Assembly: GCF_003286915.1 (NCBI RefSeq)
Contig: NZ_QMFY01000007.1
Coordinates: forward strand, 248,001-312,000
DNA from: Pseudochryseolinea flava
GTDB lineage: Bacteria; Bacteroidota; Bacteroidia; Cytophagales; Cyclobacteriaceae
Direction of reading: 5' to 3'
Length of the DNA: 64,000 bases
Below are positions 11,545 through 54,443 of this stretch, piece after piece. A program made the translations under genes and the position numbers. Position 1 is the first letter of the stretch. The number at the start of each line of letters is the position of its first letter. The notes beneath the pieces are model-generated. The model searched no databases, was not told the DNA's origin, and was given only the letters and a program-made list of their open reading frames with translations.

Positions 11545-11867
11545 GGCACACTTGCCAACAAGCTTCGACATCCTTTTTCAAAGGAAGCAATCTTATCGCT
11601 GATGATGTCTGTGTTACCTTCATCGGCCAAGGTTTCAATTTCTATTGCTTGTGCAGCCAACGACTCAACACTAAGGTAAGTAAACTGAGTTTTCATACTG
11701 TGTGCAACCGTTGAGAGAGAGGCCCAATCCTCATTGAGCAGATGCGTCCGCAATTCTTCAAGCTGCTGCGGACACTGCGTTTTAAAAATAGTAAGGAATC
11801 GATTGACGAGATTTTCATCCTCTGACATTAGAGTCTTCAGGTAGGTAAGATCTAGCGACTGCTGCAT
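11541..11867 (-). CDS. Stand-alone Hpt phosphotransfer protein
   Basis: This small helical protein (108 residues from the ATG at 11867) carries the histidine phosphotransfer motif VAHSMKTQ, with His56 as the likely phosphoacceptor. Hpt proteins shuttle phosphate from the receiver of a hybrid kinase to the receiver of a response regulator. The ATG lies one base after the stop of the OmpR-type regulator gene, so the two are co-transcribed and probably translationally coupled. Its stop overlaps the stop of the hybrid kinase on the other strand (shared TTAA, 11541-11544). The obvious inferred relay is kinase His1514, kinase D1801, Hpt His56, then regulator D54. Confidence 0.88.
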   Translation of the reverse strand: MQQSLDLTYLKTLMSEDENLVNRFLTIFKTQCPQQLEELRTHLLNEDWASLSTVAHSMKTQFTYLSVESLAAQAIEIETLADEGNTDIISDKIASFEKGCRSLLASVP

Positions 11868-11868
11868 C

Positions 11869-12585
11869 TTATTTGATCTGTGGTGATGGCGAATCAACTT
11901 TAACAATCAACTTATATCCTTCGCCATGAAGATTTAGAATTTCGATTGCATCTTCATCGCGCAACAGTTTACGAATCTTACTCACATATACATTCAAACT
12001 GTATCCACGAAATTGCTCGTCGTCGCCCCAGATATTTTTCAACGCTTCATCACGCGTAAGGACTGCATTTTCTCGTTCACACAACAACTTCAACAGCTTC
12101 GATTCGATTGATGTAAGTTTGATATGCTTATCGCCCGAAACTAATTCTCGAAGTCCTGATTGAAACGTTAGTTTCCCTAACTTAAACGTTCCTGGCGACT
12201 TAATTTTTTCTTGCACCTTCACACGTTTTAGAATGGCGTTAATACGAAGATAGAGTTCTTCCATACTAAACGGCTTCGTCAAGTAATCATCGGCGCCCAA
12301 TTTAAGCCCTTTAATTTTATCCTCCTTTGTCGACTGACCGGTAAGAAAAATAATTGGCATGTCCTCATATAATTCTCTGATTTCAGCAGCCAATGTAAAC
12401 CCGTCTTTGCGAGGCATCTTAATATCAACAATACACAGGTCCACTGGTGTGGTTCGGAGAATATCGAGTGCTGCATCAGCGTCGTGCTTAAGCGTAACTT
12501 GATATCCACGCATCTCAAGATATTCTTTTGTCAGTTCACTGTAATGAACTTCATCGTCTATATGCAGTAAGTGCGCAACGGTCAT
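11869..12585 (-). CDS. OmpR/PhoB-family response regulator
   Basis: The 238-residue protein has an N-terminal receiver (HIDDE acidic pair at 10-11, phosphorylatable D54 in CIVDIKMPRKDG, a conserved LTGQ segment and K in LTKPF). A C-terminal winged-helix domain follows (about 140-230; LTSIESKLLKLLCE, then a recognition helix near SLNVYVSKIRKLL). It should bind DNA as a dimer on direct repeats. I use the ATG at 12585 (MTVAHLLHIDDE); an upstream TTG in the same frame is less likely. It is the first gene of a two-gene operon with the Hpt protein. Three tandem 10-bp repeats lie about 120-150 bp upstream of the start and are candidates for autoregulation. Confidence 0.95.
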   Translation of the reverse strand: MTVAHLLHIDDEVHYSELTKEYLEMRGYQVTLKHDADAALDILRTTPVDLCIVDIKMPRKDGFTLAAEIRELYEDMPIIFLTGQSTKEDKIKGLKLGADDYLTKPFSMEELYLRINAILKRVKVQEKIKSPGTFKLGKLTFQSGLRELVSGDKHIKLTSIESKLLKLLCERENAVLTRDEALKNIWGDDEQFRGYSLNVYVSKIRKLLRDEDAIEILNLHGEGYKLIVKVDSPSPQIK

Positions 12586-12703
12586 GAGGGTAGAGTTTTG
12601 TTTCGCCAACTAATTGCGAAGGGAAGTTACGACATTATTTCAATTCAAAATAGTACCCGATTAACCCCGGAACACCGTAAAGCAACGCATAGCCTACTGG
12701 CCA

Positions 12704-12733
12704 TTTTAATATTTTTTTATACTTCTTAATATT
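12704..12733. promoter_or_regulatory. Three tandem 10-bp direct repeats upstream of the response regulator
   Basis: The top strand reads TTTTAATATT (12704), TTTTTATACT (12714) and TCTTAATATT (12724), three imperfect 10-bp units in register. Read on the other strand the units fit RTATTAARAA, the same unit repeated at 5825-5844. The array sits between the regulator gene (leftward) and the serine hydrolase gene (rightward), so it could influence either. Confidence 0.45.
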
Positions 12734-12836
12734 TTCTTCAATCCTCGCCTTAAAGCCGACACTAGTTTTGTCGTGTTAAATCATTGGTTCCCTCGCCAAT
12801 ACAAAAAAATGTCTCACGATTAAACACAAAAAAAAG

Positions 12837-30672: not shown

Positions 30673-33600
30673 TTAGCGCAGCACAATTTTATGAACTTCA
30701 ATGTGCTTCTCTGTAACAAGTTTTATGAAATAGGTTCCGGCACTTAAACTTTCAACGTCTAATCTGAGGGCATCCATCGAGTTCAGATTCTCATAATGAT
30801 TTGTCATCAACAATTTACCGGTCACGTCGGTGATGGACACAGCAACATCCGATGACGTATCCAAACGTTTGACAAAGACCTCATCGACGCTTGGGTTCGG
30901 ATACACCAGAAAGTTTTTCACTTGCTCCCCGCTTTCTATCATCACAGCAATGACGTCGAAGTAGGTTTTTGTACCGTCCAAGTCTACTTGATGAAGCCTG
31001 TAGTACACAATGCCGTTGGCTAATTCATGATCGAGAAATTGATAATATTGCCGCTTTTGTGTGTTCCCTTTCGAGGCAATCTTTCCAAGATCATAGAACG
31101 AAAGACCATCGGTGGACTTTTGGATTACAAAATAATCATTGTCTTTTTCGGTCGCCGTCACCCACGTTAACGAGACATGCGTTCCGCGGAATTGGCCTGC
31201 GAAATCAACCAACTCAATAGGGAGCGGAGTGTCATCACTCCCTGAAAAAATTGCCCAACTTGAAAAATCTGTGATCCCCGTTACGACCACACGCGATGGA
31301 TCTTCATCCGGAGATGCCACACTTTTGAGTCGATACGATTCCCATGCCGATCCTACCGCATCCCACCGCGCAGCAAACGCCTGACTTTGATTAAATGATG
31401 GTTGTCTAACGTTATCGGGATATTGAAAAATGGTTGAGGCTACAGCAGACACAGGGAATGCCGTTGGCTCAATAGACCACATCGCAAGCAAGGGGTTTGT
31501 AACTGTTCCAGGTCCTTTCGCCGTAACGGGATTTACACCTTCTACAAATACCGTTACATCTGTAGATCCTGTACTAAAACTAATGGTGAGTGGCAGATAA
31601 CTTGCCGCCGTGCCCACAGGAAATGTCGTCGATGAAGTGGAAACATTCCGCATGAAATTTCCCACGATGTGTCCGGATGATCGCGTCACAATACTTGACG
31701 CACCACCTATCACTTTAAAACTTCCCGTCACGATGTTTCCTTGAACGAATGTTAATCCATTCGCAACCTGTATGTCCGTATTGAGGGTGACGCTATTCGC
31801 ACTCTTATTGACGGCGAGCGTAGCAAAGTTTGTCTCTGCACTTCCTCCAATGGTCTGCGGAGCCGCTCCAATAAATTCAACGGTACCGCTACCCGCCGCA
31901 TAAGCGCTCGCAGATACATTGTTCGTCCAAATTCCTTGTAAAGATATCTTCCTATTGTTCGCGCTATTGTCCAAAGTACCACTTGCAATCGTCAGATTTC
32001 CACGAAGTGTGATATCGGCATTGGGAAGCATAATTGAACCCGTTGCGTTTACAACCACATTATTGTAAAACAACTGCGTTGACAGCGCATAGCCGGTACC
32101 CGTGTACTCAACCGTTCCGCCTGAGTTATTGACAAATTGATCGTAGGCCCCGCCTGGAAAAATTCCAGATGATAACGACAAGGTACCCGAACCAAGTACG
32201 TTTCCAAAGTTGTGTCCGAAGGTAGCATTTGCAATCAAGAGCTTGGCACCAGATCGAACTTCAAGACTAAATGTATTTTTGGAATTCGGTGCTGCTACAA
32301 ACGCCGTCGATAATGTCACCTGATGAGTCGCATCAATGATCACCGGCGCCCCTGCAGAAGGAACTACACCACCAATCCACGTTGCGCCAACGTCCCAGTT
32401 TCCGCTTTGTGCAGAAACAAATGATTGTACAGATTGAAATGCCGACGGGTTACCAGCGGTATAATCTCCTGAAATATAATTTACGCCCGTGGCACCACCA
32501 TCGATCGTAATTAAATTCGATACAGCCGTGATAGTACCGACGCCAGTACCTTTTGTCCAGTTGCCAAAGAATCGTGCCGCATCATACAAATTCTCGTTAC
32601 CATTAATGTCTTCGTTATTGTAGGTGTAGATGTGCTGAACCGTAAGCCCTGAAAATCCCGTGCTACTCACATTCCAATAGTAGTCAAGCGCATCGAACCC
32701 CACAGTAACTGATGGGTGCTTTCGATTTACTGGCTTCACGGTGATCGTACCTACTGCGCCGTTTGCCGTTGCGGTGTATTGTACAGGTGTATACTTACTC
32801 GATGTGCCCAACGGAAAAGTAAAATTGAACGCACCTGATGCAAAGTTTTTCGTTACACCCTGATCACTTAGCGTACCATTTGTGCGAATCATATTCAACG
32901 CGTTTGGAGATCCTCCTATTGTCGCGCTTTGGCCAAGCGTAAGATGCGTCGATCGAATATCCATGATGCCACTCATAAATGTCAGCGTCCCATTGATTGT
33001 TTGGTTTGTCTCAAGCAACAATCCATTCGCATTGTTAATCTCAACGTTGCCAAAAATACCTTGACCATTGCCGGAGAGAATCTGCTGCGCTGTGCCATTA
33101 AAGATCATCTTCCCTGCGCCTGTACTGGTGTGACTACTGTAATTATTGACACGCTGCTTTACCGTGATCGTTCTGCCGTTGTCAAACAGTGTTCCCGTGT
33201 TAATGTTCAAAGTTTGATTAACAACGACATTCACGCCCGTCACAGACACTATTCCGCTCGATTTCGTATTCGCAATGTTTAAATTATTAAACGTTACAGT
33301 CCCAGATCCGGAAAGTACTTGATCAACCGCAGCACCCGAGAAGTAGGTTGTGTTAGCGCCTGGTGTATACGTACCGTTCACGACAAAATTACCTTGCAAC
33401 AACAAATCAAAATCATTTGCAACAAACGACGATGATGCGCCTATTGTAAAAGTATTTTTTATCGTAAGATCTCCAACAGTAAGGCTAACAATCGGGGCGT
33501 TGGTTGAATTTATTGTGAGATCATACAACGGTATGCTGGAATACATCTGCATGTTTTGACCTACCGGCGTATACAAGGCGCTTCCCATCTGTATAGTTCC

Positions 33601-36600
33601 ACCTGTTGTGTAAGATGTTGAGGGCTGTAAATAAAGTGATGCTATCGTCGGTGTTCCTGATTGCTGACGCGCGATGATCAACGTTCCGCCCGTCATTCCA
33701 AAGAGACTACCATCATTCAAGACCTCAAGTAGTGAACGATTACTATTAGGAGCGGATTGCGTCCCGATTGTCACGGTACCTCCAGTCTGAATATAACTCA
33801 ACGCGCTGATTGTCGAGGTATTGGCCCTCCGCACTTGTGACCCAACACGCAACTCACCTCCGTTGACTTCAATAAACGAGTCTCCACCACCCGCGACTTC
33901 AATGTAGTTATCACTGGTACCACCGCCTTCTATGTAAAAAGTACCTGCGTCAATTTTCAATTTTCCCCCAAGTAAGAGGCCTGCTCCTGTACCCGTAGTC
34001 GTAATTCTCAAGTTTCCGCCATTCAAAAACAGTTGTGCAGTGTAGGGAATAAAGTAATCGCTTCCATTGTTGCCGGAGCTAATCACCAACGTCTGACTAC
34101 TCGACAACTTGAATGTTCCATTTTGAAGATCTAATGCTTTTGCCGCCGATGTTGTGGCTGCAGAAAGTGAAAAATTAGAAAGATTTACTTCAAGCAACGG
34201 CGTTTGTGTTGTTCCCTTGTTAACAATGAGGCGATTGAAATCTGTTGTCGCTCCAGTTCCGGTTATCGTATTGTTTGATGTTCCCAAAAAGGTCACATCG
34301 CAAATTCGCGTCGCATCGTTCATGTTAAATGTACCGTTGTTGATCATGCCACCATTGAGGTTGAGCAGATTGGTCACAACGGTACCGGTAGCCGCTACGC
34401 TAAAACTACCCGCCGATTGAATGTTCAATAAGTTTGTTACATTAATCGTTCTTGCTAAACCATTTTGATACTGCAACGCTCCGGCAATAATCAAATCATG
34501 TAGCACATCAATGTTCCCGATCCCTGTTGCCGTGTTACTAATCGCTGCTTTACCAGTTCCGGTGATCGCAGAAATTGTCAGATCATTGTATACGGTTAAA
34601 TTAATATCAGGAAAGGTTATCGTTCCGCTTCCAGGACTTATAACCAAATTCATATAGGTGGGCAAGGCCAGTAGTGTCGGCGATGCTGACGTGGTCGGCA
34701 ATTTAAAGTCAAGTGCTGTTCTATAGTACTCAACAGTGCCTCCCCCTGTAGCAATGAACTCTCCAAAGTCACCGGCAGGAAATTGCGCCGTAGCACTTGC
34801 TGATGAAATTCTCATTCGCCCATTGCCTTTAATTTTCTCACCCACCGCAGCGCCAAAGTTGTGACCTGTCGTTGTCCCTAGATCCAACGTACTTCCACTA
34901 CTTAACTTCAAATTACCTGCATTTCTTGTGTTCGTCGTCACAGTAACGGTATGGTTGAAAGACGTACCATCACCAATGAATACAGGGTTATTACTGGAGG
35001 GTGTACTTCCGGATGCCGTTCCACCAAATGTTACGTTAGACCATGTCGTCGGCGATTCCCAATTTCCGCTCGCGCGACTGTAGAATACAATGACAGCACT
35101 AAATGCCGTAGAAATGCCTGCCGTATATTCTCCAGCGAGGTAGCTCACGTTGGTGAACGGAATCGTATTGGCGGCGGAATTTACACTAGCAGATGTTGTC
35201 CACGTTGAAGGATTGTTGAGATCATAAAAACCACCGATGTAAGATGTTTCGGTACCAACCACATCACCTTGCACGTATTCGAATGTTGAGCTAATATTTT
35301 TCGCTCCCGTGAATCCTGTATTGCGCACTTCCCAATAATAGTTCAAGGCATTTGTGCCACTCACAAATGGGTGTCTAACATTCACAGGGTTGATCGTGAT
35401 GCTTCCAAAATTAGCAGCCGACACAACGTTCATTACAACCGGCGTGTACTTTGATGTTACCCCTAACGGAAAAGTGAATGTACCCGCTGACGGATAAATC
35501 TTTGTCAGGCCACCATCAGAACGATTCCCGGCAGTCTTAATCATTTTTGTACTCGACGGCGACGACACCGAAATTGACGCGGAACCACCGAGTGTTAAAT
35601 TGAATTGTTTTAAATCAAGTACTCCGGCCGTGAGCGTGAGCACACCATTTACAGTTTGTTTTACCGAAAGTGCCGCGCCGTCCGCATCGTTGAGCTCTAA
35701 GTTTTGAAACACACCATTACCAGATCCTGAAAGTGTCGATATCGTTCCTACACTATTATTCAATCTGATACGCCCCGTACCCGTGTGCGTAGCATTGTTA
35801 ACAATATTACCGCGTACTGTAACCGTTTCCCCTCCATCATTCAGTGTTCCCGTATTCAGCGTGAGATTACCGGCAACAGTTGTCGTAAGATTGCCGGCTA
35901 ATGTGACGACGCCTGTTGCAAATGTATTGGCGATAGTGAGGTTATTAAATGACAATCCTGAAGGGCTGGTTACGGTTTGATTTCCCGTACTGCTATTAAA
36001 GATCGTTGTATTCGTACCTGTCGTATAGGTTCCTTGGTTGTTAAAGTTTCTACCTACTGTTAAGTTCAGGTTGTTGGCATTGAATACGGCTGTAGCACCA
36101 ATCACAAAATCATTGAGTACAACCAGCGGATCATTCGTCAACGCTACATTGCCGATACCTGAACCTTTAATCGAAGTAAAATTATAGAAGGGAACTGTAG
36201 AGCGAACCAAGTGCGAGGTTGCCGAGTTGGTTGTTACTTCCACCAATCCTCCAGTGACATCATAGTTTGCTGCATCTGCACGAATGTCAATCGCTCCCGT
36301 TAGTGTAGCGTTTCTAACACGAATGGTGCCACCCGACATTCTGAAAATCGTCGATGTCTTATCCAAGCTAAATTGTGCAGCAGACGTGTTGTTTTCTCCT
36401 GTACCCGTTACAATGAATTCTCCACCGGATTGAACGTAGGCACTTCGATTATTCGCTGCACCCGTACCCGCAGTAGATGCTCTTAGCTGACTTACCGTAA
36501 CGGTGCCACCTTCGATGATAATTTCAGAAATCGTTCTGTATACAATTCCTGCACTTCCGTTGCCATTCCAATTGCCACTGCTAACACGCAACTTACCATA

Positions 36601-39600
36601 CAACGTGAGCCCTGTATTTCCTGGCGATCCAGAAGCCGCATCATAAGTAGCAACCGTTGCTCCGTTTAACCATATCGCACCACGCTCTGGAATAAAAAAG
36701 TCGTTACCTCCAGTAGACAACCTAGGAATGTTGATACTACTACCGAGCTTGAGCGTTCCATTCTTTACCCATAACGCTTTATTGATTTCTGGATTTTCCG
36801 CACTATAGGGAGCAGTTGTTGAACCATTTGCCAATTGCGTCGGCGCATACAATGCAAAGTTTGTCGCATTCATGTCAAGGATGTACGTCTGATCAACTCC
36901 CTTATCAACGATCAATTTATAGACATCGAATTTAGTTGCTGCTCCAGTAATTGTATTATCTGAAGCTCCTTTCATCGTCAGTATAGCTGCGCCTAAACCT
37001 GTGGCATCAGCATACTGAACTGCGTTTGAAAGATCAATCGATCCGTTGGCAACAAGATTCTGATAAAAGTTCAACTCATGAATCTGGTCGTTCCCAATGG
37101 CCACCATTGCGCCACTTGATATTGTCACGTTGCCAAAAATGTTAACCGTTAATTTATTGCCTGCACCAGAACCGATTGTTGCTGTTCCTCCTGTTACTGA
37201 GAAATTTCCATTCACGACGATTGTGCGCGTAGGACCACCGATAACTTTATTTCCAGTCCCGGACATGATCACGTTGTTGTAATATGGAATGTTGGTCGCT
37301 AGACCTCCGGTGTAGTCGTAGTACTCAACCGTGCCTCCTACCGGGGAAACAAATTCAAGGAAGTTACCAGTCGGAACAGAAGTGGTTGCAATGCGAAGCA
37401 ACCCCGCACCGCGAATCGTACCAAAGTTATGTCCTCCGAAAGTTTTAATATCTAACGTTCCTCCTGATTCAATTTCCAGTGAGGTTAACGTTTTGTTAGC
37501 CGATGCCATGAACATTGTTCTTCCATTGAGAATGATCACACGATCGCCATTGTTCGGGCCACCCGCGCCGGGCTGTCCTTGCAAGATTGTACCGGTAGGA
37601 TCGGTGGTCCAGTTGTTGGGCACATCCCAACTTCCTGACTGATAACTGTAGTATGTCTTCGCAAAATTACTGGCATCCCCCGCGCGCCATTCCGATTCTA
37701 AAAAAGTATTACCTGCGGCATTTACACCAAAAGTCCGCGTGGTTGTATTATCGACAAACGATCCCGTTACATCGTTGTCAACGTTGTCTGCAAAGCGTTT
37801 AACAACCAACGTCGGCGTGCCACTGATGGTAATCTCTGATGCGTCATACTTGAATGTGATCCGCGCGTTCGTGATCGCAGAAATGTTCGTCGTTTTTACA
37901 TACCAATACCGTTTAACGATATTGTCATTGGTCGTCGAAAACGGAATAGCCTTGATTGCAATCGAAGCGGTTCCCGAAATAGAGGCCCCCAGTTGTGTTA
38001 TCTGTGCATAGGAATAAATCGTTCCTGTCCCTATTGGATACAAGCGCTGAAAACCTGTCGCTGTAGTAGACTCGCGTATCAGTACGCCATTGGTGGAATT
38101 GGTACCATCTTGTAAAATCATCCGTGTGCTGCTGAAATCCGTCGGCGCTGTCCCGCCTGCATTTCCGCTAATAATTCCCGACGGCCCAATGGTCAGATTA
38201 TAAACATCTAAGTTCACAACACCTGCATTCGCCAAGGCCAAAGTACCATTAACGCGCGTAGCATTACCCAATATCAATTGAAGTCCACTCGCCTTCGATA
38301 CTGTCAAGTTATTAAAAGTAGTTTGTGACGTTCCGGTGATCGACTGATTCGCCGTAGCGTTGTTGAAGTTCACGGTCCCTGATCCTGCAAGTGTACCATT
38401 GTTGATAAAGTTTCCAGTTAACGCAATTGTATTTGCGCCGGTAGCTAACGTAGCGGTCGACTCGATTGTCAGGTCCTTCGTCACTTGTATCGATGCCGAC
38501 ATTGTCTTGGTACTCGCGCCTTGAATTATTAAGTAAGCATACGGTAAAGGAGACGTACCAATATTGTAGTTAACGGTACCGTTATACGCAACTGTTCCTG
38601 TCCCTGAAGATGTAAGGAATGATGTAAACGTGCCGGCTGGAAACGTCGTCGTTCCACCAACCGTTGCCGACAAGGCGATTGTACCTGCACCTGTTACTGT
38701 CCCTAACGTATGTGTTGTAATCGTTCCTAAGTCTAGCGTACCGTTTACTACCGCTGTTGATGCTGACACTGAAAGCCCCGCGGACACAATTGTGCCTACG
38801 CTAGTCGTCGCCATGGCTATTTCTAAATTTGTAAAGTTAGCGGTCCCTGTGATTGTTTGATTAACGCTGCCCATGAACTTGACCGTGCCCGTACCCGGGG
38901 TGAAGGTTCCGTTGTTCACATAGTTTCCCGAGAGATTGATTTTGAAAGCCCCTGCTTGTAGTGTTACCCCCGATGAGATCGTTAAGTTATTTGCAATCGT
39001 TACATCTGCTGTGAGCGACTTTATGCCTGAACCTGAAAATAACAAATTAGGAAATGTGGCAACTGTGCCTGGCGCTGCTACCGACTGTGCTGCCCCCGCG
39101 TATTCAATTGTACCATCTGCGCCATCAATCGTTGCTAAATATCCTGTGGGGAATGCCGCTGTACCATAAATCCGTAATACGCCGTTGATATCAATGCGCA
39201 TTTCAGAAACACTGGTGGACCCATTGATGGTGTATTGCGTAGTATTGTCGCCAAGCTCTAAATATCCTGCGATGATATAGAGACGGTCGGCGACTGTCCA
39301 ATGGTTCGTTAATTTTATCGAGCGATTGTTTTTGTTTACCGTCAAACTGTTCAGCCTAGAATTTCCCAACGCCGCTGTTCCACCCAATGCCACATTACCG
39401 CCGATCTCGATAATTAAATTCACGACTGTCCATCCACCTCCCGGACGCGCTAAATCTGTAAAATCAATTACACCATTGTTTGTCAAATTTCCGTTGTCGC
39501 CTTGGATAGCCAAAGTATGAATTCCTTCTGTTAAGCCAGTGTTTCTGGTAAGTGTGCCATTAACATCAACGCTCACCGGACCGCGTACATTGAGTCGTCG

Positions 39601-39930
39601 GCCGACGTTGTCGTTTCCAAAAATGAGCGAACCGGTTTGCACCGGCGTCCCAACGGTGAGGCCACTGATCTCGCGGTCAATGTCAAGCACAACATTGTGT
39701 CCGGCGGCAATGATGACAATATCCGTCGAGTTACTTCCCAACACACCACCAGGAATCTGCGGTGCCACAGCGCCAGCATGATTTTCCACCGACCATGTAT
39801 TGACATCATTCCAACTACCGCTGCCACGACTATAATACGTCGTTTGACCTTGCGCACTTGACAACACCACCAACACGAGCGCGACGAGTAATAGAATAGA
39901 TTTTCCCGTTCCAGTAAATAGTTTATACAT
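30673..39930 (-). CDS. Giant repetitive T9SS surface protein/adhesin (3085 aa)
   Basis: A signal peptide (ending SSAQGQ) is followed by about 2950 residues of Thr/Ser/Asn/Gly-rich beta-repeat sequence with recurring N(L/V)T-x-G-(T/S)L patterns, typical of right-handed beta-helix-like adhesins. Four super-repeats can be seen, starting near residues 28, 756, 1612 and 2499 with variants of YYSRGSGSWNDVNTW. Further internal repeats are GHNFGxxxGxGxL...GGTVEYY and PVNxxHPxV...YYWxVxxTGFxG. The tail has a PIELVDF-type domain and a T9SS type A sorting domain with YPNP near 3010. It is probably exported to the surface for adhesion, gliding or a matrix role; no catalytic domain is visible. The frame is unbroken over 9.3 kb. 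Confidence 0.92.
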   Translation of the reverse strand: MYKLFTGTGKSILLLVALVLVVLSSAQGQTTYYSRGSGSWNDVNTWSVENHAGAVAPQIPGGVLGSNSTDIVIIAAGHNVVLDIDREISGLTVGTPVQTGSLIFGNDNVGRRLNVRGPVSVDVNGTLTRNTGLTEGIHTLAIQGDNGNLTNNGVIDFTDLARPGGGWTVVNLIIEIGGNVALGGTAALGNSRLNSLTVNKNNRSIKLTNHWTVADRLYIIAGYLELGDNTTQYTINGSTSVSEMRIDINGVLRIYGTAAFPTGYLATIDGADGTIEYAGAAQSVAAPGTVATFPNLLFSGSGIKSLTADVTIANNLTISSGVTLQAGAFKINLSGNYVNNGTFTPGTGTVKFMGSVNQTITGTANFTNLEIAMATTSVGTIVSAGLSVSASTAVVNGTLDLGTITTHTLGTVTGAGTIALSATVGGTTTFPAGTFTSFLTSSGTGTVAYNGTVNYNIGTSPLPYAYLIIQGASTKTMSASIQVTKDLTIESTATLATGANTIALTGNFINNGTLAGSGTVNFNNATANQSITGTSQTTFNNLTVSKASGLQLILGNATRVNGTLALANAGVVNLDVYNLTIGPSGIISGNAGGTAPTDFSSTRMILQDGTNSTNGVLIRESTTATGFQRLYPIGTGTIYSYAQITQLGASISGTASIAIKAIPFSTTNDNIVKRYWYVKTTNISAITNARITFKYDASEITISGTPTLVVKRFADNVDNDVTGSFVDNTTTRTFGVNAAGNTFLESEWRAGDASNFAKTYYSYQSGSWDVPNNWTTDPTGTILQGQPGAGGPNNGDRVIILNGRTMFMASANKTLTSLEIESGGTLDIKTFGGHNFGTIRGAGLLRIATTSVPTGNFLEFVSPVGGTVEYYDYTGGLATNIPYYNNVIMSGTGNKVIGGPTRTIVVNGNFSVTGGTATIGSGAGNKLTVNIFGNVTISSGAMVAIGNDQIHELNFYQNLVANGSIDLSNAVQYADATGLGAAILTMKGASDNTITGAATKFDVYKLIVDKGVDQTYILDMNATNFALYAPTQLANGSTTAPYSAENPEINKALWVKNGTLKLGSSINIPRLSTGGNDFFIPERGAIWLNGATVATYDAASGSPGNTGLTLYGKLRVSSGNWNGNGSAGIVYRTISEIIIEGGTVTVSQLRASTAGTGAANNRSAYVQSGGEFIVTGTGENNTSAAQFSLDKTSTIFRMSGGTIRVRNATLTGAIDIRADAANYDVTGGLVEVTTNSATSHLVRSTVPFYNFTSIKGSGIGNVALTNDPLVVLNDFVIGATAVFNANNLNLTVGRNFNNQGTYTTGTNTTIFNSSTGNQTVTSPSGLSFNNLTIANTFATGVVTLAGNLTTTVAGNLTLNTGTLNDGGETVTVRGNIVNNATHTGTGRIRLNNSVGTISTLSGSGNGVFQNLELNDADGAALSVKQTVNGVLTLTAGVLDLKQFNLTLGGSASISVSSPSSTKMIKTAGNRSDGGLTKIYPSAGTFTFPLGVTSKYTPVVMNVVSAANFGSITINPVNVRHPFVSGTNALNYYWEVRNTGFTGAKNISSTFEYVQGDVVGTETSYIGGFYDLNNPSTWTTSASVNSAANTIPFTNVSYLAGEYTAGISTAFSAVIVFYSRASGNWESPTTWSNVTFGGTASGSTPSSNNPVFIGDGTSFNHTVTVTTNTRNAGNLKLSSGSTLDLGTTTGHNFGAAVGEKIKGNGRMRISSASATAQFPAGDFGEFIATGGGTVEYYRTALDFKLPTTSASPTLLALPTYMNLVISPGSGTITFPDINLTVYNDLTISAITGTGKAAISNTATGIGNIDVLHDLIIAGALQYQNGLARTINVTNLLNIQSAGSFSVAATGTVVTNLLNLNGGMINNGTFNMNDATRICDVTFLGTSNNTITGTGATTDFNRLIVNKGTTQTPLLEVNLSNFSLSAATTSAAKALDLQNGTFKLSSSQTLVISSGNNGSDYFIPYTAQLFLNGGNLRITTTGTGAGLLLGGKLKIDAGTFYIEGGGTSDNYIEVAGGGDSFIEVNGGELRVGSQVRRANTSTISALSYIQTGGTVTIGTQSAPNSNRSLLEVLNDGSLFGMTGGTLIIARQQSGTPTIASLYLQPSTSYTTGGTIQMGSALYTPVGQNMQMYSSIPLYDLTINSTNAPIVSLTVGDLTIKNTFTIGASSSFVANDFDLLLQGNFVVNGTYTPGANTTYFSGAAVDQVLSGSGTVTFNNLNIANTKSSGIVSVTGVNVVVNQTLNINTGTLFDNGRTITVKQRVNNYSSHTSTGAGKMIFNGTAQQILSGNGQGIFGNVEINNANGLLLETNQTINGTLTFMSGIMDIRSTHLTLGQSATIGGSPNALNMIRTNGTLSDQGVTKNFASGAFNFTFPLGTSSKYTPVQYTATANGAVGTITVKPVNRKHPSVTVGFDALDYYWNVSSTGFSGLTVQHIYTYNNEDINGNENLYDAARFFGNWTKGTGVGTITAVSNLITIDGGATGVNYISGDYTAGNPSAFQSVQSFVSAQSGNWDVGATWIGGVVPSAGAPVIIDATHQVTLSTAFVAAPNSKNTFSLEVRSGAKLLIANATFGHNFGNVLGSGTLSLSSGIFPGGAYDQFVNNSGGTVEYTGTGYALSTQLFYNNVVVNATGSIMLPNADITLRGNLTIASGTLDNSANNRKISLQGIWTNNVSASAYAAGSGTVEFIGAAPQTIGGSAETNFATLAVNKSANSVTLNTDIQVANGLTFVQGNIVTGSFKVIGGASSIVTRSSGHIVGNFMRNVSTSSTTFPVGTAASYLPLTISFSTGSTDVTVFVEGVNPVTAKGPGTVTNPLLAMWSIEPTAFPVSAVASTIFQYPDNVRQPSFNQSQAFAARWDAVGSAWESYRLKSVASPDEDPSRVVVTGITDFSSWAIFSGSDDTPLPIELVDFAGQFRGTHVSLTWVTATEKDNDYFVIQKSTDGLSFYDLGKIASKGNTQKRQYYQFLDHELANGIVYYRLHQVDLDGTKTYFDVIAVMIESGEQVKNFLVYPNPSVDEVFVKRLDTSSDVAVSITDVTGKLLMTNHYENLNSMDALRLDVESLSAGTYFIKLVTEKHIEVHKIVLR

Positions 39931-46383: not shown

Positions 46384-47226
46384 TTGAACACCAAATTCAC
46401 TCCATTCTCGTTTCTGTTTATCTTTTTACTATTAATTGCATGTGGCGGCGAAAAGACCGAACATGAACAGTACGAAGATGCAACCTCTGGTATTCGCTAC
46501 AACACCTACAAAACCGCCTCGCGTGTTACCTTGAAAACAAGTGTTGAAGCTTACAATCTCGCCAACGCAGACTCTAATAAAATTCAAGAACCATACCTGC
46601 ATTTGTTGTTAGGCTACGGATGGACTATTTCAGGAAAGCCGACCTTGGCATTCGCTGAAGCTGACATTGTAGAAGAAGATAAAGATGCTAAGCTCGTTTA
46701 CCTGGCCCAATCATTACGATCCATTACGATGTACCAAGCTGGTTGGCCCGGCATCGCCAAAGAAGAGGCGATAAAGGCGAAGGAAAAAGTTGCCAAGACT
46801 CCCAATACAAACGTAACGTATGAAGCCGCTGTGTTCTATTTGTTAATGGGAACAGTGTTCGTGAAAGAAAAAGACTTTGAGCAAGCTAAATTCTTCTGGG
46901 CGGGGTTTGCAACCGAGACCGATATCCATTGGCCTTATCAGTTATGTGACGCCGCAGCCGATCTTAATGCTGGGCGTATTCAACAAGGATTGCAAAAGGT
47001 GAAAGTGATTTCACAAGATCCCGCCGTACCTCCTATTTTACGCGCAGCCCTCGCGGCGGAAATTTCTAAAATTGAAATCCATGCCGGCGGTGACGTCGAT
47101 TCTTCAATGTTCTGGCCCAAACTAATCGCCGGACTGATCTGGGAAGAATTGAAAAATTCATCCGACGCGACCTTACGCAAGATCGCAAACATGGCACGAG
47201 ACCTTCAACAATCTTTGCCTAACTAA
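46384..47226 (+). CDS. Lipoprotein with TPR-like helical repeats
   Basis: The product has 280 residues. A signal peptide with lipobox LLIACGG starts immediately at a TTG (46384); no in-frame ATG precedes it, so TTG initiation is required to keep the signal. The rest is helical with repeated A-x-L-Y and Y-x-A-A-x-F patterns resembling TPR repeats. It is probably an envelope scaffold or sorting factor, but I do not recognise the family. It converges on the condensin-like gene with only 12 bp between the stops. Confidence 0.8.
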   Translation: MNTKFTPFSFLFIFLLLIACGGEKTEHEQYEDATSGIRYNTYKTASRVTLKTSVEAYNLANADSNKIQEPYLHLLLGYGWTISGKPTLAFAEADIVEEDKDAKLVYLAQSLRSITMYQAGWPGIAKEEAIKAKEKVAKTPNTNVTYEAAVFYLLMGTVFVKEKDFEQAKFFWAGFATETDIHWPYQLCDAAADLNAGRIQQGLQKVKVISQDPAVPPILRAALAAEISKIEIHAGGDVDSSMFWPKLIAGLIWEELKNSSDATLRKIANMARDLQQSLPN

Positions 47227-47238
47227 ATTTCAAAATTA

Positions 47239-50200
47239 CTACGGCTCGATACTCATGGTCAGCAACGGAATGACTTTCACGTAACCGTGCTGATCTTTTC
47301 TGAATTTATAAGTGTAGTTGTAGTGCGTTTCTAATTTGCTCTCGTTAGGAAGACCGTTGATCAAACAGATATTTCGCTCACCAGCGAAGTTGATTAGCTC
47401 TTTCAAGTACGGCGCGGAAATCTGTCCTACCTCATCGATGATACAATGAACACTGAAATTGCGCGCCGTCTTCTCTGTTGACTCCTTGATAAACACATTC
47501 AAGAGTGTAATGTAGATCACCGCTTTTACCAGCATGTCGGTTCCGGTCGATCCTACGCGATCGATTTTTTCAATCCACCCTGTATCGTTTTTTCCTTCTT
47601 TAATTCTAAAGCGAAGCTCGAAAAGATCTTGCACTCTGATTTCTTCATACTTCTCCTCGGCAATAGTCTTCTGAAGATCGTTCAACAACTCCACGGAGCG
47701 CCTATCGATCTCTCCCTTTGATTTGTTATTCTGATTGAAAAGGTTCGCTTCACCATACAAGAAAGGATTCTGCTCGCGGAATTCTGAAATCTTCTGCAAC
47801 TTCCGGAGAACCTTATTTTCACTGTCTTCCGACTTGAGCTTAATGTATTCGATCAGCTTTGAACTCTCGAATGAAGCTTTACTAAAGTCGTGCTCCATCT
47901 TATCGATCATTTTATTGATACGACCTTTATGCTCAATCAAAGCCTTCATCTTACTTGAAATGGCGTCAATTAACATACCATGACTTTTCGCCACTTCCGC
48001 TATCGATGTTTGAATTTTATTCTCGTTATAAAACTCTTGAAGGTATGCCGCGAAGCGCTCGTACTCCACTTCACTTGCCTGAGCTCCTATCTTAAAGTTC
48101 AAGTGATTATCCGGACGGAAACGCCCAGCAAACTCCGTGATGTTATTCCGGAATTTCTCAAACTGACTGTGAAACTCGTTGTCATTCGCTTGAAGTTGTG
48201 AGCATAGACCAATGATACCTGTTTCTGCATATTCCGCGGTTGCACCTTCGATCATATGTCGAAGTCTGTCGAATAAAATACGATCGCGGAAATGATTCTC
48301 AAAATGATCTAAGCCGTCCGTAAATTTCTTGAGCGATTCTGCAAGCGCGCGCACATCTTCCTGCAATTGAACTTTCCGTGCCGCGAAGAGCTGTTTCTCC
48401 GTGCCGAAAGCTTTGTCCGATTGCCGGATGCGATCTTCCAAGCGTTCCTTTTCCTTCCGAAATTCTTCAGCCTTATCAAACAACTCTCGCTTATCTTTGC
48501 GATAATCGGCAATCAACTCTGCATTCTCTTCAAGTTCTTTCAACGCTACCTTAATGGAATCAATGTCTGTGCGAAGTTTCTTAATCCGTGTATCGTCAAT
48601 GCCCTTCTTTTTCAGCACTGCTGATTTCTCTTTCTGAAGCTTTTCTTTTCTTTCTCGAAACTCTTCCTCTTTTTCCGCGCGTTGCTCCTTGACATTTGCA
48701 TTCTCGCGCTCGAAACTCTTGCCTAACTTCTCAACCTTTTCAGCAACATCTGCTTTAAGTTTTTGAATATTCTTATTGACTACCGCATCAAGCTCTGTTA
48801 AGTTCTGTTTCAACGACTCAAGTGTCTTCTTCAATGTTTGTTGATGGTTGTACACCTCAAGAAGTTCCTTTTCTCTCAGCGCCTCGCCCTTTCGTTGCCA
48901 CTCATACAGGTCAAGCTCGTACTGCTTCTCCTTCTGCGTATCTTGCTCCGCTTCATATTCAAGTTGCGAAATTTCGTTCTTGATATGCGCCGATTTCTTT
49001 CCAATACCACCAATACGACTCTGTTCTTCCCGGGCTTGTGTTTCGCGGAACTCAAGGAACGCATGGTTTAGCTCAGCGATTTTCTCCAAGTAACCTGCTT
49101 TCTCTTGTTCATATTCTTCGAGCGTCTTTGAGTGAACCTTTACATTACTCAAATCCAACCCAATGCCATAAAGCGTATCGATATTTTTCTTGGTCAACGA
49201 AGGCTTTAGCTCTTTGTTGAACAAAATTTCTTCATTACAAACCTTTCCGATGGTCTCGTACCATGTTGGATAATGCTCTTGAAGGAAACCAAACAACGCA
49301 TCTTGGTGAATTGAAAGCTTGTCGTCGATTACTTTGATCTTCTCTTCAATAACAACAAGCTCTTGCTTATTTTTCTCAACGTACTGTTCTGAAGTAATTC
49401 TAAAACGTTCACGAATGTGATCACCTTCCTTCTTCAAAGAATCGATCATATTATTCTTCACCGTTAACGCAGATGTACGTTCCATGCGTTTCTTCGCGAT
49501 CTCAGCCAAATGATCTTTGAGTAAGGTAACTTCCTTCTCAAAATATTTGCGCTGCTTAATCTCACGCTCTCGGAAACTAACATCCTTCGCTTCAAGTTCC
49601 TTCTCACTCCTCAATTGCTTAAAGCGATCGGACTCTTCCGCGTGCCGTTCCTTAATTTCAGCCTCTTCTTTTCGATATGCGTCTTGAATCTTATTCTTCT
49701 CCTCTGTGAAGCGCTTATCCAATTGCAGCGCTTGTGAACTTAGGACGTGATCAAGTTCACGGCGTTCGTTCTCCAGTGCATCAAACAACGTTTTGAACTG
49801 CTGCTCTGTATCACTAAATCCAGCTGTCAATGTTGCATATTCATTTTCGCGTGCCTGAAGCTCCACCAATAACTGAGGCTTCTCCTCTGCTTCTCGTAAT
49901 AAGTCTACAATTCCTTTCTCCTCGTAGTCGCGTTGTTTTTTATCAGACTCACGGAGTTTAGACTTCAATGCTCCGATCTCCTGGTTTACATCTTTGTTCC
50001 GCTCTTGATGCGCCACTTCCTTCTCTAAATATTCTTGCTCAATACGAGAAAGCTCGTCACGCTTTACCGCAGCCTGAATTCCCACACTTTCTTTCTGTGC
50101 TTGCGCATACTTTAGCGCTCCGCCCAATTCACCCGCAAGCGAGCGTTGCTTCACCTTCAGTTGCTGTAACTGCGAAAAGTTATCACGAATCAGGTCGCTT

Positions 50201-50916
50201 CGTTGGGAATTCTCTTTTCTAAAAAATGTCTCTATATCGTGGTATCGCTCAGCAAACTGGCGGAGTTGACGTTCAATTGTTTTCAACTCAATCGTTGTAT
50301 GCTTTGAACTAATGGAGTTCGCAATACACTCTTTCACGAACTCTGCGCGAATTACCGATTCGGAACTTAAGAAAATCGACGTGATCGCTAACGGAATATT
50401 ATGATAGTTCGCATTCCCTTTCATCAGGGCGAACTTCTTGTACTTCTTATCCGGATCTGCTCCGTAAATGATGTTCCTATAGCGTTCGAACGTTTCAATC
50501 TGATCACTATAGCCTATTTTGTTTTCATTGAATTTTCCAAGTACAGCTTTCGGCAATAAAGCCTCGCTATCGACGATGTAGTGATCTTGGACAAAAGGGC
50601 TCTCTACAAATCGATAAAAGAGTTTATTATTCCGATATACCGCGACATGAAAAACGCCTTCCTCCGTAGCGATTTCGTAGATGATATAGGAATTGGGAAA
50701 TTGAAAATAATAATCTTCAAAAGATTTCTGTGAGGGCGATATACCTAGTCCACGTGTATTCGCACTATAAAAAAACAGGATTGCTCGCTGCAATGTTGTT
50801 TTCCCCATATTGTTGGTTCCAACGAAGCATGTATTCCCCGCAATCTCAATACTTGAATAATCTGTATTCGCAATATTTATAAAAATAATCCTATTGAGGA
50901 TTCGTCTGCTCTCCAT
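47239..50916 (-). CDS. mksB: MksB/MukB-like SMC ATPase
   Basis: The 1225-residue protein has the SMC plan. An N-terminal head has Walker A GTNNMGKTT (33-41). Very long heptad-rich coiled coils (about 230-900) are interrupted by a probable hinge. The C-terminal head has a degenerate signature GSTGTDMLVKA (near 1120) and Walker B HCIIDEVGQIS (near 1155). It should form the ATPase core of a DNA-organising complex. The order MksF-MksE-MksB and the sizes fit MksBEF/MukBEF condensins or the related Wadjet JetABC core. I place the start at the ATG at 50916; it overlaps mksE by 26 bp. No JetD/MksG nuclease gene follows. Confidence 0.85.
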   Translation of the reverse strand: MESRRILNRIIFINIANTDYSSIEIAGNTCFVGTNNMGKTTLQRAILFFYSANTRGLGISPSQKSFEDYYFQFPNSYIIYEIATEEGVFHVAVYRNNKLFYRFVESPFVQDHYIVDSEALLPKAVLGKFNENKIGYSDQIETFERYRNIIYGADPDKKYKKFALMKGNANYHNIPLAITSIFLSSESVIRAEFVKECIANSISSKHTTIELKTIERQLRQFAERYHDIETFFRKENSQRSDLIRDNFSQLQQLKVKQRSLAGELGGALKYAQAQKESVGIQAAVKRDELSRIEQEYLEKEVAHQERNKDVNQEIGALKSKLRESDKKQRDYEEKGIVDLLREAEEKPQLLVELQARENEYATLTAGFSDTEQQFKTLFDALENERRELDHVLSSQALQLDKRFTEEKNKIQDAYRKEEAEIKERHAEESDRFKQLRSEKELEAKDVSFREREIKQRKYFEKEVTLLKDHLAEIAKKRMERTSALTVKNNMIDSLKKEGDHIRERFRITSEQYVEKNKQELVVIEEKIKVIDDKLSIHQDALFGFLQEHYPTWYETIGKVCNEEILFNKELKPSLTKKNIDTLYGIGLDLSNVKVHSKTLEEYEQEKAGYLEKIAELNHAFLEFRETQAREEQSRIGGIGKKSAHIKNEISQLEYEAEQDTQKEKQYELDLYEWQRKGEALREKELLEVYNHQQTLKKTLESLKQNLTELDAVVNKNIQKLKADVAEKVEKLGKSFERENANVKEQRAEKEEEFRERKEKLQKEKSAVLKKKGIDDTRIKKLRTDIDSIKVALKELEENAELIADYRKDKRELFDKAEEFRKEKERLEDRIRQSDKAFGTEKQLFAARKVQLQEDVRALAESLKKFTDGLDHFENHFRDRILFDRLRHMIEGATAEYAETGIIGLCSQLQANDNEFHSQFEKFRNNITEFAGRFRPDNHLNFKIGAQASEVEYERFAAYLQEFYNENKIQTSIAEVAKSHGMLIDAISSKMKALIEHKGRINKMIDKMEHDFSKASFESSKLIEYIKLKSEDSENKVLRKLQKISEFREQNPFLYGEANLFNQNNKSKGEIDRRSVELLNDLQKTIAEEKYEEIRVQDLFELRFRIKEGKNDTGWIEKIDRVGSTGTDMLVKAVIYITLLNVFIKESTEKTARNFSVHCIIDEVGQISAPYLKELINFAGERNICLINGLPNESKLETHYNYTYKFRKDQHGYVKVIPLLTMSIEP

Positions 50917-51445
50917 CGTCTTCAATCGTTATAAGTGAAATAACTTCTTCCAAGTAATGGATAGCGTCCATCACCTTGTATGTATCCTCATCCTCTTGCT
51001 CAAAAAATCCAGCCGCAGTGAGGTCGCCTGCAATCTCCCCGACTTTATCAACCATTTTCTCTCGTCGCGAAAGCGCATATATCTTCTGCTTCAGTCTTTC
51101 GTTAGAAAAACACTCTTCCGCAATTTGCGTTACGCGATATCGGGTGCCAACAACAGGTTTATTATCCATCGATGAAAAGAAGTCCATAACATCGATGTAA
51201 TACGCAAACTGCTCCAACTTCTTTTCGATAATCAAGTTGGGCTCATCCGTTTGACTGAAATAAAAATAATTATGACCGCGCTCGAGGGTATAGCCGGTAT
51301 GACTAAAAAATTCTTTTAGAATAGTATAGTTATCCTCGTAGTTGATAATATCGAAGAGTTTTCCTTTGCTCCCATTTGAGCTAATGAAATTCCCTCTACT
51401 TAAAATCGCAAAAATATCCGGCGTATGTTTGGGGATGTTGTTCAT
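50891..51445 (-). CDS. mksE: MksE/MukE-like condensin subunit
   Basis: The 184-residue acidic protein has winged-helix-like character: an early ILSRGNFISSN segment, several helices, and a late DTYKVMDAIHYLEEVISL segment typical of MksE-like proteins. MksE bridges the kleisin (MksF) and the SMC head. Its ATG overlaps the stop of mksF as ATGA (51442-51445), and its 3' end overlaps mksB, so translation of the three is probably coupled. Sequence similarity within this family is low, so the call leans on gene order and size. Confidence 0.72.
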   Translation of the reverse strand: MNNIPKHTPDIFAILSRGNFISSNGSKGKLFDIINYEDNYTILKEFFSHTGYTLERGHNYFYFSQTDEPNLIIEKKLEQFAYYIDVMDFFSSMDNKPVVGTRYRVTQIAEECFSNERLKQKIYALSRREKMVDKVGEIAGDLTAAGFFEQEDEDTYKVMDAIHYLEEVISLITIEDDGEQTNPQ

Positions 51446-52662
51446 TTAACAGCTTTCTTATTGGGTTTAATGATTGCATAGCCAAGCTGTAGCTTCTGCT
51501 TTTTTTCGTTGATGTATTGCATCTTTCCGAGCTTTCCGGAGATCAACAGTCTGTTGTCATAATCAATAGTAATCCCCACATAAAGTGAAATCCGCTTTTC
51601 TAAACTCAAGGTGCCAACCTTCTCCGGAAAATTGTAGTTCAATACAAATTGAAACAAGTCACTATCCGACTGTAGGAACTTCTCCACAAGGCCTGCTATG
51701 TTCAAGCTTGCCGACTCCTCAAGATTGTTATCATCGAAACCGGCAACCATTTTTCCTGCTGGCTTGCGATGATTGTTACGAAGTAAATGCAACTTCTTCG
51801 CAATCTTCTGTGTGATCGTATAGCCGTGGTCAGTATGCAAAAAGTCCAACGACAACTTTGACTTCAATGGATTTCTCCTTTGGAACATCAATGCCCTTGT
51901 TCCGATCACAACGTCGACGAAATTGGTTTTGTATTTCAATTCTTCGTAGTCCTTCAACTCTTTTAAGCGCTGAATCTTTTTGTAGATCGCTGCTTGATGT
52001 TGAATCTTGTTGATATAGTCAATGATCTGCGCCTGAATTTCATTCAGATAATCTCTATTGCGCACGAGCACGTAACGTAAATCCAACACTATCGAATTTA
52101 ATTCCGCATCAATGATCGTATTAAACAAACCTTGAGCATCCGACACGATCTGCTCTGACTCCATGATCAGATTGATAATATCATCACGCTTGCGCTTGTA
52201 CTTGTCGAGCTCTTGTAGTTTGATCAGATAATTATCCTGATTCTTATAAGTATCATCGATGTTCTTGTGAAGCTTCATAACCTCACGCGATGTAGTCGAA
52301 TTGATCTTTTTAAGTGAGCGCTTGATATTCCGTAAGAACTTCGGATTAACGTCGATGTGATAATACTTGAGATTCTCATTTAACGAACGAATATTGTCCG
52401 TAATGAAGCTCGTCGTTACTTCACCGATCTCAAGGAATTCTTCAATAAAAGTCGTGATGCGGTCGTCGAGACCAATTACGTTGTTGTTCTCGTGGATGAT
52501 TTCGTAGTTGACCAGCTTTTCAAGCTTTTCATCCGACATATCACCACGGGCAAGAATCTCCGACTTGTTGATCGAATCCTTGTTACCAAACAAGATTTCA
52601 ATGACCTCCTTATTTTGATAGAGGAGGTTAACAAGATCCCGTATGGTAAGTGGTGCCTTCAA
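51442..52662 (-). CDS. mksF: MksF/MukF-like kleisin subunit
   Basis: The 406-residue protein has a helical/winged-helix N-terminus (about 1-90), a long helical middle (about 100-260) and a C-terminal beta/helical domain. This is the plan of MksF/MukF kleisins, which close the SMC ring. It is the first gene of a three-gene operon with overlapping stops and starts. The start is TTG at 52662: a TAA lies five codons upstream and the next ATG is at codon 42. The family call is by context as well as layout. Confidence 0.72.
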   Translation of the reverse strand: MKAPLTIRDLVNLLYQNKEVIEILFGNKDSINKSEILARGDMSDEKLEKLVNYEIIHENNNVIGLDDRITTFIEEFLEIGEVTTSFITDNIRSLNENLKYYHIDVNPKFLRNIKRSLKKINSTTSREVMKLHKNIDDTYKNQDNYLIKLQELDKYKRKRDDIINLIMESEQIVSDAQGLFNTIIDAELNSIVLDLRYVLVRNRDYLNEIQAQIIDYINKIQHQAAIYKKIQRLKELKDYEELKYKTNFVDVVIGTRALMFQRRNPLKSKLSLDFLHTDHGYTITQKIAKKLHLLRNNHRKPAGKMVAGFDDNNLEESASLNIAGLVEKFLQSDSDLFQFVLNYNFPEKVGTLSLEKRISLYVGITIDYDNRLLISGKLGKMQYINEKKQKLQLGYAIIKPNKKAVK

Positions 52663-52952: not shown

Positions 52953-54443
52953 TTGAAACTCAGACATACGCCCCCATTGTCGCACCGGCGCAGACGTACA
53001 TTTTTCGTCGCGCATAGTCTTCTCATCATACTCATTCTGTTGACCGCTCCGCTTTGTGGCTTTGCTCAGTTCACAACCAATTACCAAGCGCTGCCCATTG
53101 AAGATACTATACCTCCCACTTACTTATCTGCCTTGAATACACGCCTCTCAGGCGCTCAAGCAGCAATCTCTGAATCTAACAAAGCTGTTATCGCTTCCAT
53201 TCGGAAATACTTACAAAACCGCACCGACTATGTTATCAGTAGGTTCAACGACGACTACATCATCAGCGATCCAACGTTAACATCTTCCCTGCAACGCCTC
53301 TTGAAAGATATTTATGATGCTAATCCACAATTTAAACCGGAGACACACGTATTCGTTTATCGCAGCGAGGCGGTTAATGCTGTAAGTTTTGGCGAAGGAA
53401 CTATTGCCCTAACGCTTGGGCTACTCGCGCGCATGGAAACGGAAGGACAGATTGCCTTTGTCCTATGTCACGAGTTAGCACATTACCACTACAAACATTC
53501 CGACAATAAAATAGTCGCGCTTTCAAAATTGTATAACGACAAAGAGTTCAAGAAGGAAGTCCGTTCGATCAAACGAAGCGATTACGAGCAGATCACTAAG
53601 TTTTCCAAGCTCGCAAAATCATTGGAGCTTTCGATCACACATCATGGCCGCGAACATGAGTTCGAAGCGGACTCTCTTGCGCTACGCATGTACCGAAATT
53701 TGACTTCTGATGTACATTCCCCGATTCGTACGCTGGAGATTCTGGATAGCGCCGACCGCGATGAATTCCCTAACAATCTCGATCTAAAGACGGCACTTCA
53801 CACCGACGCATATCCCTTCAAAGACCAGTGGCTTGCGTACACACCATCCAGCACTTGGCACGCAACATCGGAAGATAACGACAGTACGCGTACACACCCC
53901 AGTTGTCAGCGACGCATCAAAGCCTTACAGCGTCAAATGAAAAGTCTACCAGCCTGCATCAATAATAAGTTTAATGCAGACGCGCGGAACACGCTTCGTG
54001 AACATTGTCGATTTGAACAAGTAGCATCGCTGGTACACTATAAGCGCTATGGCCGCGCACTATTCGAGTCACTCAAACTTGCAGCACGATATCCTGACAA
54101 TGCCTATGTTCATGCCATCATTGGACAATGTCTCTACCAGCATTACGCTCATCAGCAAAACCATGAACTCGGCAAGGTGTTGTCGCTCCCTGACCCGCGG
54201 TTTGCTGAAAACTACGATCGGTTCCTCACCTTCATGCATAATCTTCGACTAAGTGAACTTGCGTCGCTCTCCTATCATTACATGGCGTCACGCAAAGATC
54301 GCTACATATCGAATGAAGAATTTCTTTTCGGTTGGTGGATGGCATCTCAAACAGGTGTCGGCAATGTAGCATCCGACGAAATCAAAAAAGCGTACATCAA
54401 AACATTCCCGCACGGGAAGTATATTAAAAAGTTTAACAAGTAA
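52953..54443 (+). CDS. M48 family zinc metallopeptidase, secreted
   Basis: The product has 496 residues. An Arg-rich n-region and hydrophobic signal (ending PLCGFAQ) begin at a TTG (52953) with no better ATG upstream or nearby. The protease core shows HELAH (H173, E174, H177) and the third ligand E238 in EHEFEAD, so the zinc site is intact. The C-terminal half is helical and TPR-like. M48 enzymes of this type, such as BepA-like proteins, act in envelope quality control. The next gene starts 19 bp downstream, which suggests a two-gene operon. Confidence 0.9.
   Translation: MKLRHTPPLSHRRRRTFFVAHSLLIILILLTAPLCGFAQFTTNYQALPIEDTIPPTYLSALNTRLSGAQAAISESNKAVIASIRKYLQNRTDYVISRFNDDYIISDPTLTSSLQRLLKDIYDANPQFKPETHVFVYRSEAVNAVSFGEGTIALTLGLLARMETEGQIAFVLCHELAHYHYKHSDNKIVALSKLYNDKEFKKEVRSIKRSDYEQITKFSKLAKSLELSITHHGREHEFEADSLALRMYRNLTSDVHSPIRTLEILDSADRDEFPNNLDLKTALHTDAYPFKDQWLAYTPSSTWHATSEDNDSTRTHPSCQRRIKALQRQMKSLPACINNKFNADARNTLREHCRFEQVASLVHYKRYGRALFESLKLAARYPDNAYVHAIIGQCLYQHYAHQQNHELGKVLSLPDPRFAENYDRFLTFMHNLRLSELASLSYHYMASRKDRYISNEEFLFGWWMASQTGVGNVASDEIKKAYIKTFPHGKYIKKFNK

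Follow-up and report, generated by a model that had tools for sequence, protein, structure and literature searches.

A nuclease-free MksFEB/JetABC-type operon in Pseudochryseolinea flava and its relatives among the Bacteroidota

What does an SMC operon of the MksFEB/JetABC type do in a genome without the JetD nuclease: organise the chromosome, or still defend the cell against invading DNA? SMC rings extrude DNA loops, and in Pseudomonas aeruginosa the MksBEF complex works beside SMC-ScpAB. The question is raised here by three genes of Pseudochryseolinea flava, located in a stretch of 64,000 nucleotides (contig NZ_QMFY01000007.1, positions 248,001 to 312,000) that was analysed as a whole and is referred to below as the window. 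In the review PMC10586767, Wadjet is described as cutting DNA through JetD, and P. aeruginosa MksBEF as likely derived from JetABCD by loss of JetD and as contributing to chromosome organisation. No report of a nuclease-free MksFEB condensin of this kind in Bacteroidota was found in the open-licence literature searched.

The three genes and their predicted products

Positions of the genes and their flanks in the window are as follows.

46384-47226, plus strand: lipoprotein-like gene, assigned by reading its start
47227..47238, no strand: 12-base gap 3' of the SMC gene, the position of the putative JetD in many relatives
47239..50925, minus strand: MksB/JetC-type SMC ATPase gene, 1228 aa (PF12128, motifs, fold)
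50891..51445, minus strand: MksE/JetB-type KITE subunit gene, 184 aa (PF21980)
51442..52662, minus strand: MksF/JetA-type kleisin gene, 406 aa, TTG start (fold, conservation in relatives)
52953-54443, plus strand: M48 peptidase gene (Pfam)

The operon (47239-52662) consists of three open minus-strand frames transcribed in the order F-E-B (kleisin, MksE, SMC), with overlaps of 4 bases between F and E and 35 bases between E and SMC. The SMC gene and the convergent lipoprotein-like gene are only 12 bases apart, which leaves no room for another gene at that end. The initial annotation had proposed three overlapping genes on the MksFEB/JetABC plan, flanked by a lipoprotein gene and a protease gene rather than by JetD or MksG; the flanking genes are of these kinds, and family matches, folds, the tree and genome-wide nuclease searches all agree with the plan. 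The GC content of the operon (0.405-0.436) shows no clear break from that around it (0.412-0.465), no tRNA gene was found in the window, and terminator and promoter scans gave results close to chance level. Elsewhere in the window, positions 30673-39930 encode a 3085-aa protein with matches to a Por_Secre_tail sorting domain and a G8 domain.

The second gene product matched the MksE profile PF21980 along the entire profile (E 7.3e-35) and is accordingly predicted to be the KITE subunit. The kleisin candidate had nothing above the cut-off in Pfam, and was modelled with AlphaFold from an alignment with 36 relatives (mean pLDDT 77.8, pTM 0.43). When this model was compared with the PDB by Foldseek, ranks 1-9 were all taken by chains from entries for MukBEF, MukEF and JetABCD, with 9gm7_C (MukBEF, E 2.8e-5) and 8q72_E (JetABCD, 1.4e-4) at the head, and judging from their length these chains are presumably the kleisins. 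VIA-align returned 9gmb_D (MukEF) at Z 12.7 and rmsd 4.0 over 221 residues starting at residue 1, and 9qe1_E (Wadjet-II JetABC) at Z 11.5 on residues 81-232, but unrelated helical bundles (STAT, syntaxin) reached Z 13-14, mostly on residues 81 to about 220. Since such bundles tie on residues 81-218, the case for a kleisin is carried by Foldseek and by the N-terminal domain; with a model pTM of 0.43, the Foldseek result points to a subunit of the MukF/JetA fold. The F gene is conserved among relatives of the operon.

The SMC protein matched PF12128 (DUF3584) from residue 27 to 1209 (E 1.6e-47). The Walker A lysine, the serine and glycine of the signature and the aspartate-glutamate pair of Walker B are kept in all 88 aligned rows that have letters there, one row of the sister family f90 described below being cut off at the motif. 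A model of residues 10-1209 (pLDDT 75.2, pTM 0.39) had chains of MukBEF and Wadjet-II JetABC as its top seven Foldseek matches (E 1.5e-19 to 5e-13), followed by condensin and Smc5/6; in VIA-align, coiled-coil rows came out on top and MukB 7nyx_A scored Z 11.4. By profile, motifs and fold, this is an SMC ATPase of the MukB/JetC lineage in which the Walker A, signature and Walker B motifs are all intact. The initial annotation had recognised the SMC protein and called its signature degenerate. The first part holds, but the signature, VGSTGTD, is fixed within the clade of the window and, read in the alignment, is a clade form rather than decay, with the ATPase residues kept. Structure prediction had been proposed there as a check, and for both kleisin and SMC the nearest folds are MukBEF, MukEF and JetABC(D) chains. 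Placement of the SMC in the RecN/SbcC lineage had been named as the outcome that would speak against a condensin. A repair ATPase of this type, rather than a condensin, could be imagined from the long coiled-coil ABC architecture and from the Rad50 chains at ranks 30 and 31 of the Foldseek list, but these scored 1.5e-4 against 1.5e-19 for the leading MukB/JetC chains, and the operon encodes kleisin-like and MksE partners, making this identity extremely improbable.

Fold comparison was needed here because sequence searches of the PDB, with the three window proteins and with SMC, kleisin, KITE and JetD profiles, found no credible relatives: the matches were mostly coiled-coil and designed proteins, including a piece of archaeal Smc coiled coil at 0.0044. 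NCBIfam returned nothing relevant for the window proteins, and PADLOC gave weak JetC matches (2e-4 and 0.0032), no JetA or JetB match and, for the kleisin, a sole match to Csm3 at chance level. We regard the subunit identities of this MksFEB/JetABC-type operon without nuclease as firm, and its description as a MukBEF/JetABC-type motor that lacks a nuclease as well supported.

Search for the JetD nuclease in this genome and in relatives

The initial annotation had described the operon as nuclease-free and had proposed a genome search for JetD. Neither PF09983 (JetD_C) nor two profiles built on the DUF7281 JetD detected a Toprim nuclease of this kind, whether in the operon or elsewhere in the genome, PF09983 giving no match, profile A1 a best match at E 0.448 over 44 positions of a frame with stops, and profile A5 none at E 0.01. 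The additional profiles were needed because PF09983 misses the DUF7281 form: it stayed under the cut-off in the DUF7281-JetD genomes and proteins tested. In several relatives, a gene of about 280-293 aa lies directly 3' of the SMC gene, and its product matched PF23947 (DUF7281) at 1.3e-11 to 2e-10 in three proteins tested, at 4e-4 (under the cut-off) in the distant L058, and PADLOC JetD1 weakly (3.7e-7) in L054. The protein has an invariant glutamate and an Asp-x-Asp in a setting that we take to be Toprim-like, and these sequence features are best explained by a diverged JetD. Genes of this putative type (PF23947, DUF7281) that follow the SMC gene are listed below by locus.

L048:13123-13995, diverged JetD
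L050:7439-8290, diverged JetD
L052:12454-13311, diverged JetD
L054:5965-6837, diverged JetD
L086:10738-11619, diverged JetD

Such genes also stand behind the SMC gene at further loci of many Bacteroidota, and Wadjet-like systems with a DUF7281 JetD are probably under-annotated in this phylum. Standard models miss parts of these systems, namely the DUF7281 JetD in the case of PF09983 and JetA and JetB of the window in the case of PADLOC.

Relatives of the operon were scored for JetD, SMC, E and F in 101 sources, made up of the best 80 of 181 relatives from the named-genome scan, 20 other stretches and the window. In a careful tree of SMC heads (84 rows, 414 columns), the window falls in a clade of 7 rows (support 99/98), two of which carry JetD: L048 (the same as L066, Chryseolinea lacunae) and L086. 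The window, L065 (Parachryseolinea silvisoli) and L045-L047 do not. This clade is joined at 100/100 with a 24-row sister clade, giving 31 rows, and JetD was found in none of the 24, row L067 having no sequence behind its SMC gene. The two clades share the head motifs GTNN-GKT, GSTGTD, HCIIDEVGQ and NGLPN; most of the main tree group has GTQG-GKST, GSEGTD or GSDGTD, and HCMMDEIG. In that main group (quick tree), JetD directly follows the SMC gene in 44 of 47 rows, the exceptions being L134 and L142, without JetD, and L105, which is cut off. Two more small groups lack JetD (L049/L051/L053 and L057/L127/L129). At L134, genes for an OLD-like ATPase and a UvrD-like helicase (10925-14163), Gabija-like by sequence reading, lie behind the JetD-less operon; at L056 (4992-17727, related to Persicobacter psychrovividus), the SMC gene is split into two parts that lie about 9 kb from each other, the second being followed by an intact JetD; and L051 (3780-8778) has an E-SMC pair with no detectable kleisin gene in front.

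The JetD state requires a minimum of 5 changes on the careful tree. Because so many Bacteroidota relatives carry JetD, the ancestor was probably a four-gene, Wadjet-like operon, and the simplest reading is that a JetD-bearing ancestor lost the gene, the change counts themselves giving no direction. As L048 and L086 keep JetD, the window operon may have become nuclease-free only recently, or this state may have arisen more than once. The JetD proteins of these two loci keep the conserved Toprim-like residues and are 48% identical (their SMC proteins 75%), and in the JetD tree they stand apart from the other 43 non-outgroup JetDs, on long branches that would fit either retention or later gain. 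A tblastn search of the JetD-less window-clade loci with both proteins found no JetD remnant, the best match (E 0.063) lying inside the SMC gene of L045.

The operon in close relatives and in a sister family

F, E and SMC occur together in all six JetD-less window-clade loci examined (the window, L045, L046, L047, L065 and L081), the SMC and F frames of L081 being broken up, that of SMC by runs of N. The JetD-less pair L046-L065 is under strong purifying selection, with dN/dS of 0.026 for SMC, 0.020 for E and 0.051 for F; in most other pairs of the clade dS is saturated, and pN/pS of SMC is 0.13-0.25. Neighbouring genes are the same within the JetD-less pairs L045/L081 and L046/L065, and differ among the other loci of the clade. 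The MksE protein of the window has matches in 11 of 148 genomes of its own family, 5 of them of close type. Given this rarity and the differing neighbourhoods, an accessory or mobile module would also fit.

The 24-row sister clade corresponds to a single Bacteroidia family (f90), in which the E genes of 13 genomes are 79-100% identical to sister-clade E proteins among the best three matches listed, and 81-100% for the best match. With MksE alone as the marker of the operon, profile A6 matched 77 of 87 f90 genomes, in 10 of 10 genera, and 59 of the 62 with a completeness of 90% or more and a contamination of 5% or less; in G915, G932, G935 and G952 the match, and in G926 the core copy, is partial or broken. 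In a class-wide sample searched with profile A3, 32 of 395 genomes matched, 14 of them from f90. The F, E and SMC genes of the sister clade are often spaced apart, by up to 3.3 kb. Upstream of 28 sister-clade loci, glycosyltransferase-like (13) and prolyl-tRNA-synthetase-like (8) genes, named by sequence reading, were seen, and downstream no family recurred in more than 3.

Strong JetD matches were found in 3 of 61 f90 genomes searched. Each of these three has two MksE copies, and JetD belongs to the operon of the other type; where the core operon is present in full (L189 and L192), it has no JetD. The second, JetD-bearing operons are at L188, L190 and L191, the JetC frame of L188 being split in two. 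Five of the 61 genomes gave weak JetD-profile matches (E 2.7e-4 to 0.008), which span 54-78 of 286 positions; the frames that contain them measure about 980 aa in four genomes and 304 aa in the fifth (G933:C47:1503-1736, E 0.0033).

Searches for SMC (TIGR02168, E cut-off 1e-30) and ScpA (PF02616, E cut-off 0.001) detected both in all nine genomes that represent the window's family together with P. silvisoli, one of them being the genome of the window, and neither in any of 28 f90 sister-clade genomes or of 6 other Bacteroidia tested; of these 43 genomes, 34 lack a completeness figure. Because the six other Bacteroidia also have no detectable SMC and ScpA, the absence is not special to f90, and its value as proof that the operon has replaced SMC-ScpAB there is weakened. 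A Hi-C study (PMC10197239) describes Bacteroides caecimuris and Muribaculum intestinale as having no known condensin homologue. The f90 version may be the main condensin of that family.

Proposed role and comparison with known systems

The reading that we favour, with a probability of about 0.6, is that the operon encodes a JetABC-type motor that no longer has its nuclease and has been retained to help organise the chromosome, as an accessory beside SMC-ScpAB. The products of the three genes would form a MukBEF/JetABC-type SMC ring driven by ATP, in which the SMC dimer would bind and hydrolyse ATP, the kleisin and the KITE dimer would close the ring, and the complex would pull DNA into loops. 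A four-part, Wadjet-like ancestor (JetABCD with a DUF7281 JetD) would have lost the nuclease gene, and as looping would then no longer end in the cutting of circular plasmids, the complex would most likely aid chromosome compaction or segregation beside SMC-ScpAB, in the manner reported for P. aeruginosa MksBEF. Loop extrusion by the window complex, loss of JetD in preference to its primary absence, and the chromosomal role are what we infer from general knowledge of the family. Of the two possibilities raised in the initial annotation, a housekeeping condensin suits the relatives better than a nuclease-free relative of plasmid or phage defence. A wider version, in which a plasmid-restriction machine of Wadjet type shed its nuclease and then became a fixed chromosomal condensin in f90, with the window operon as its accessory sister, is tentative and somewhat short of even odds.

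A continued role in defence is the rival that deserves most weight, even if we consider it unlikely. JetABC would still recognise circular or invading DNA, and would either use a nuclease encoded elsewhere, possibly an unrelated one, or silence its target by compaction without cutting. The nearest relatives outside the clade are indeed mostly JetD-bearing, Wadjet-like operons, JetD persists in 2 of 7 window-clade rows, and the operon is patchy in its own family. However, the genome has no JetD homologue that we could find, no fourth gene recurs (no downstream family is shared by more than 3 of 28 sister-clade loci, and window-clade loci share one only if they form a syntenic pair), and a distribution across nearly all of f90 does not resemble that of a defence system. 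Decay of a former Wadjet operon would explain the missing partner gene, but is hard to reconcile with three open frames, intact motifs, the joint retention of F, E and SMC in the JetD-less loci and the purifying selection measured for L046-L065, and is given very little credence.

Differing neighbourhoods across the window clade would also be expected of a replicon-maintenance or horizontally moving module that serves large plasmids or islands rather than the chromosome, and distant relatives (26-28% identity) do occur on plasmid records, 4 from Persicobacter and 4 from gut Bacteroidales among the 21 with a match. The relatives on gut Bacteroidales records labelled as plasmids are L185-L187 (OY725996, NZ_OY725754, NZ_OY725907). 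Among the three gut records inspected, H2 (NZ_OY725754) has pepT, gcvT and glutamine synthetase genes, chromosomal-type genes that make its plasmid label doubtful, H8 (NZ_OY725907) has peptidase, acetyltransferase and class A beta-lactamase genes, and H1 carries no annotation; from these contents, little weight was given to plasmid records as evidence for a plasmid role. Against such a module also stand the lack of any SMC match in phage records, the window's lack of tRNA genes and of a clear GC break, and the nearly universal MksE of f90, and a scan of viral contigs with the window MksE found no relative. We consider it a distinctly improbable explanation, below defence.

If the f90 version is indeed a housekeeping condensin, it would be one born from a defence system, in parallel to MukBEF, and f90 would provide one Bacteroidota family with a nearly universal condensin candidate. 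The close relatives of the window operon include JetD-bearing and JetD-less states beside SMC and ScpA, and with this mix a passage from DNA defence to organising the chromosome could be tested directly.

Wadjet (JetABCD, or MksBEFG) has the same three-subunit core, recognised in the window by Pfam and fold comparison, and the same F-E-B gene order, and its JetABC chains are among the fold matches of the window kleisin and SMC, but it has the JetD that the window operon lacks. P. aeruginosa MksBEF is, like the window operon, a set of kleisin, KITE and SMC without a nuclease; it belongs to a different lineage, the window's relatives being paired with a DUF7281 JetD, and the likeness is one of subunit make-up. 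MukBEF, also nuclease-free, provides the best fold matches of the window SMC and kleisin, at a distance too great for phmmer or profile matches in the PDB, and in contrast to the situation with MukBEF, the genome of the window still has SMC and ScpA.
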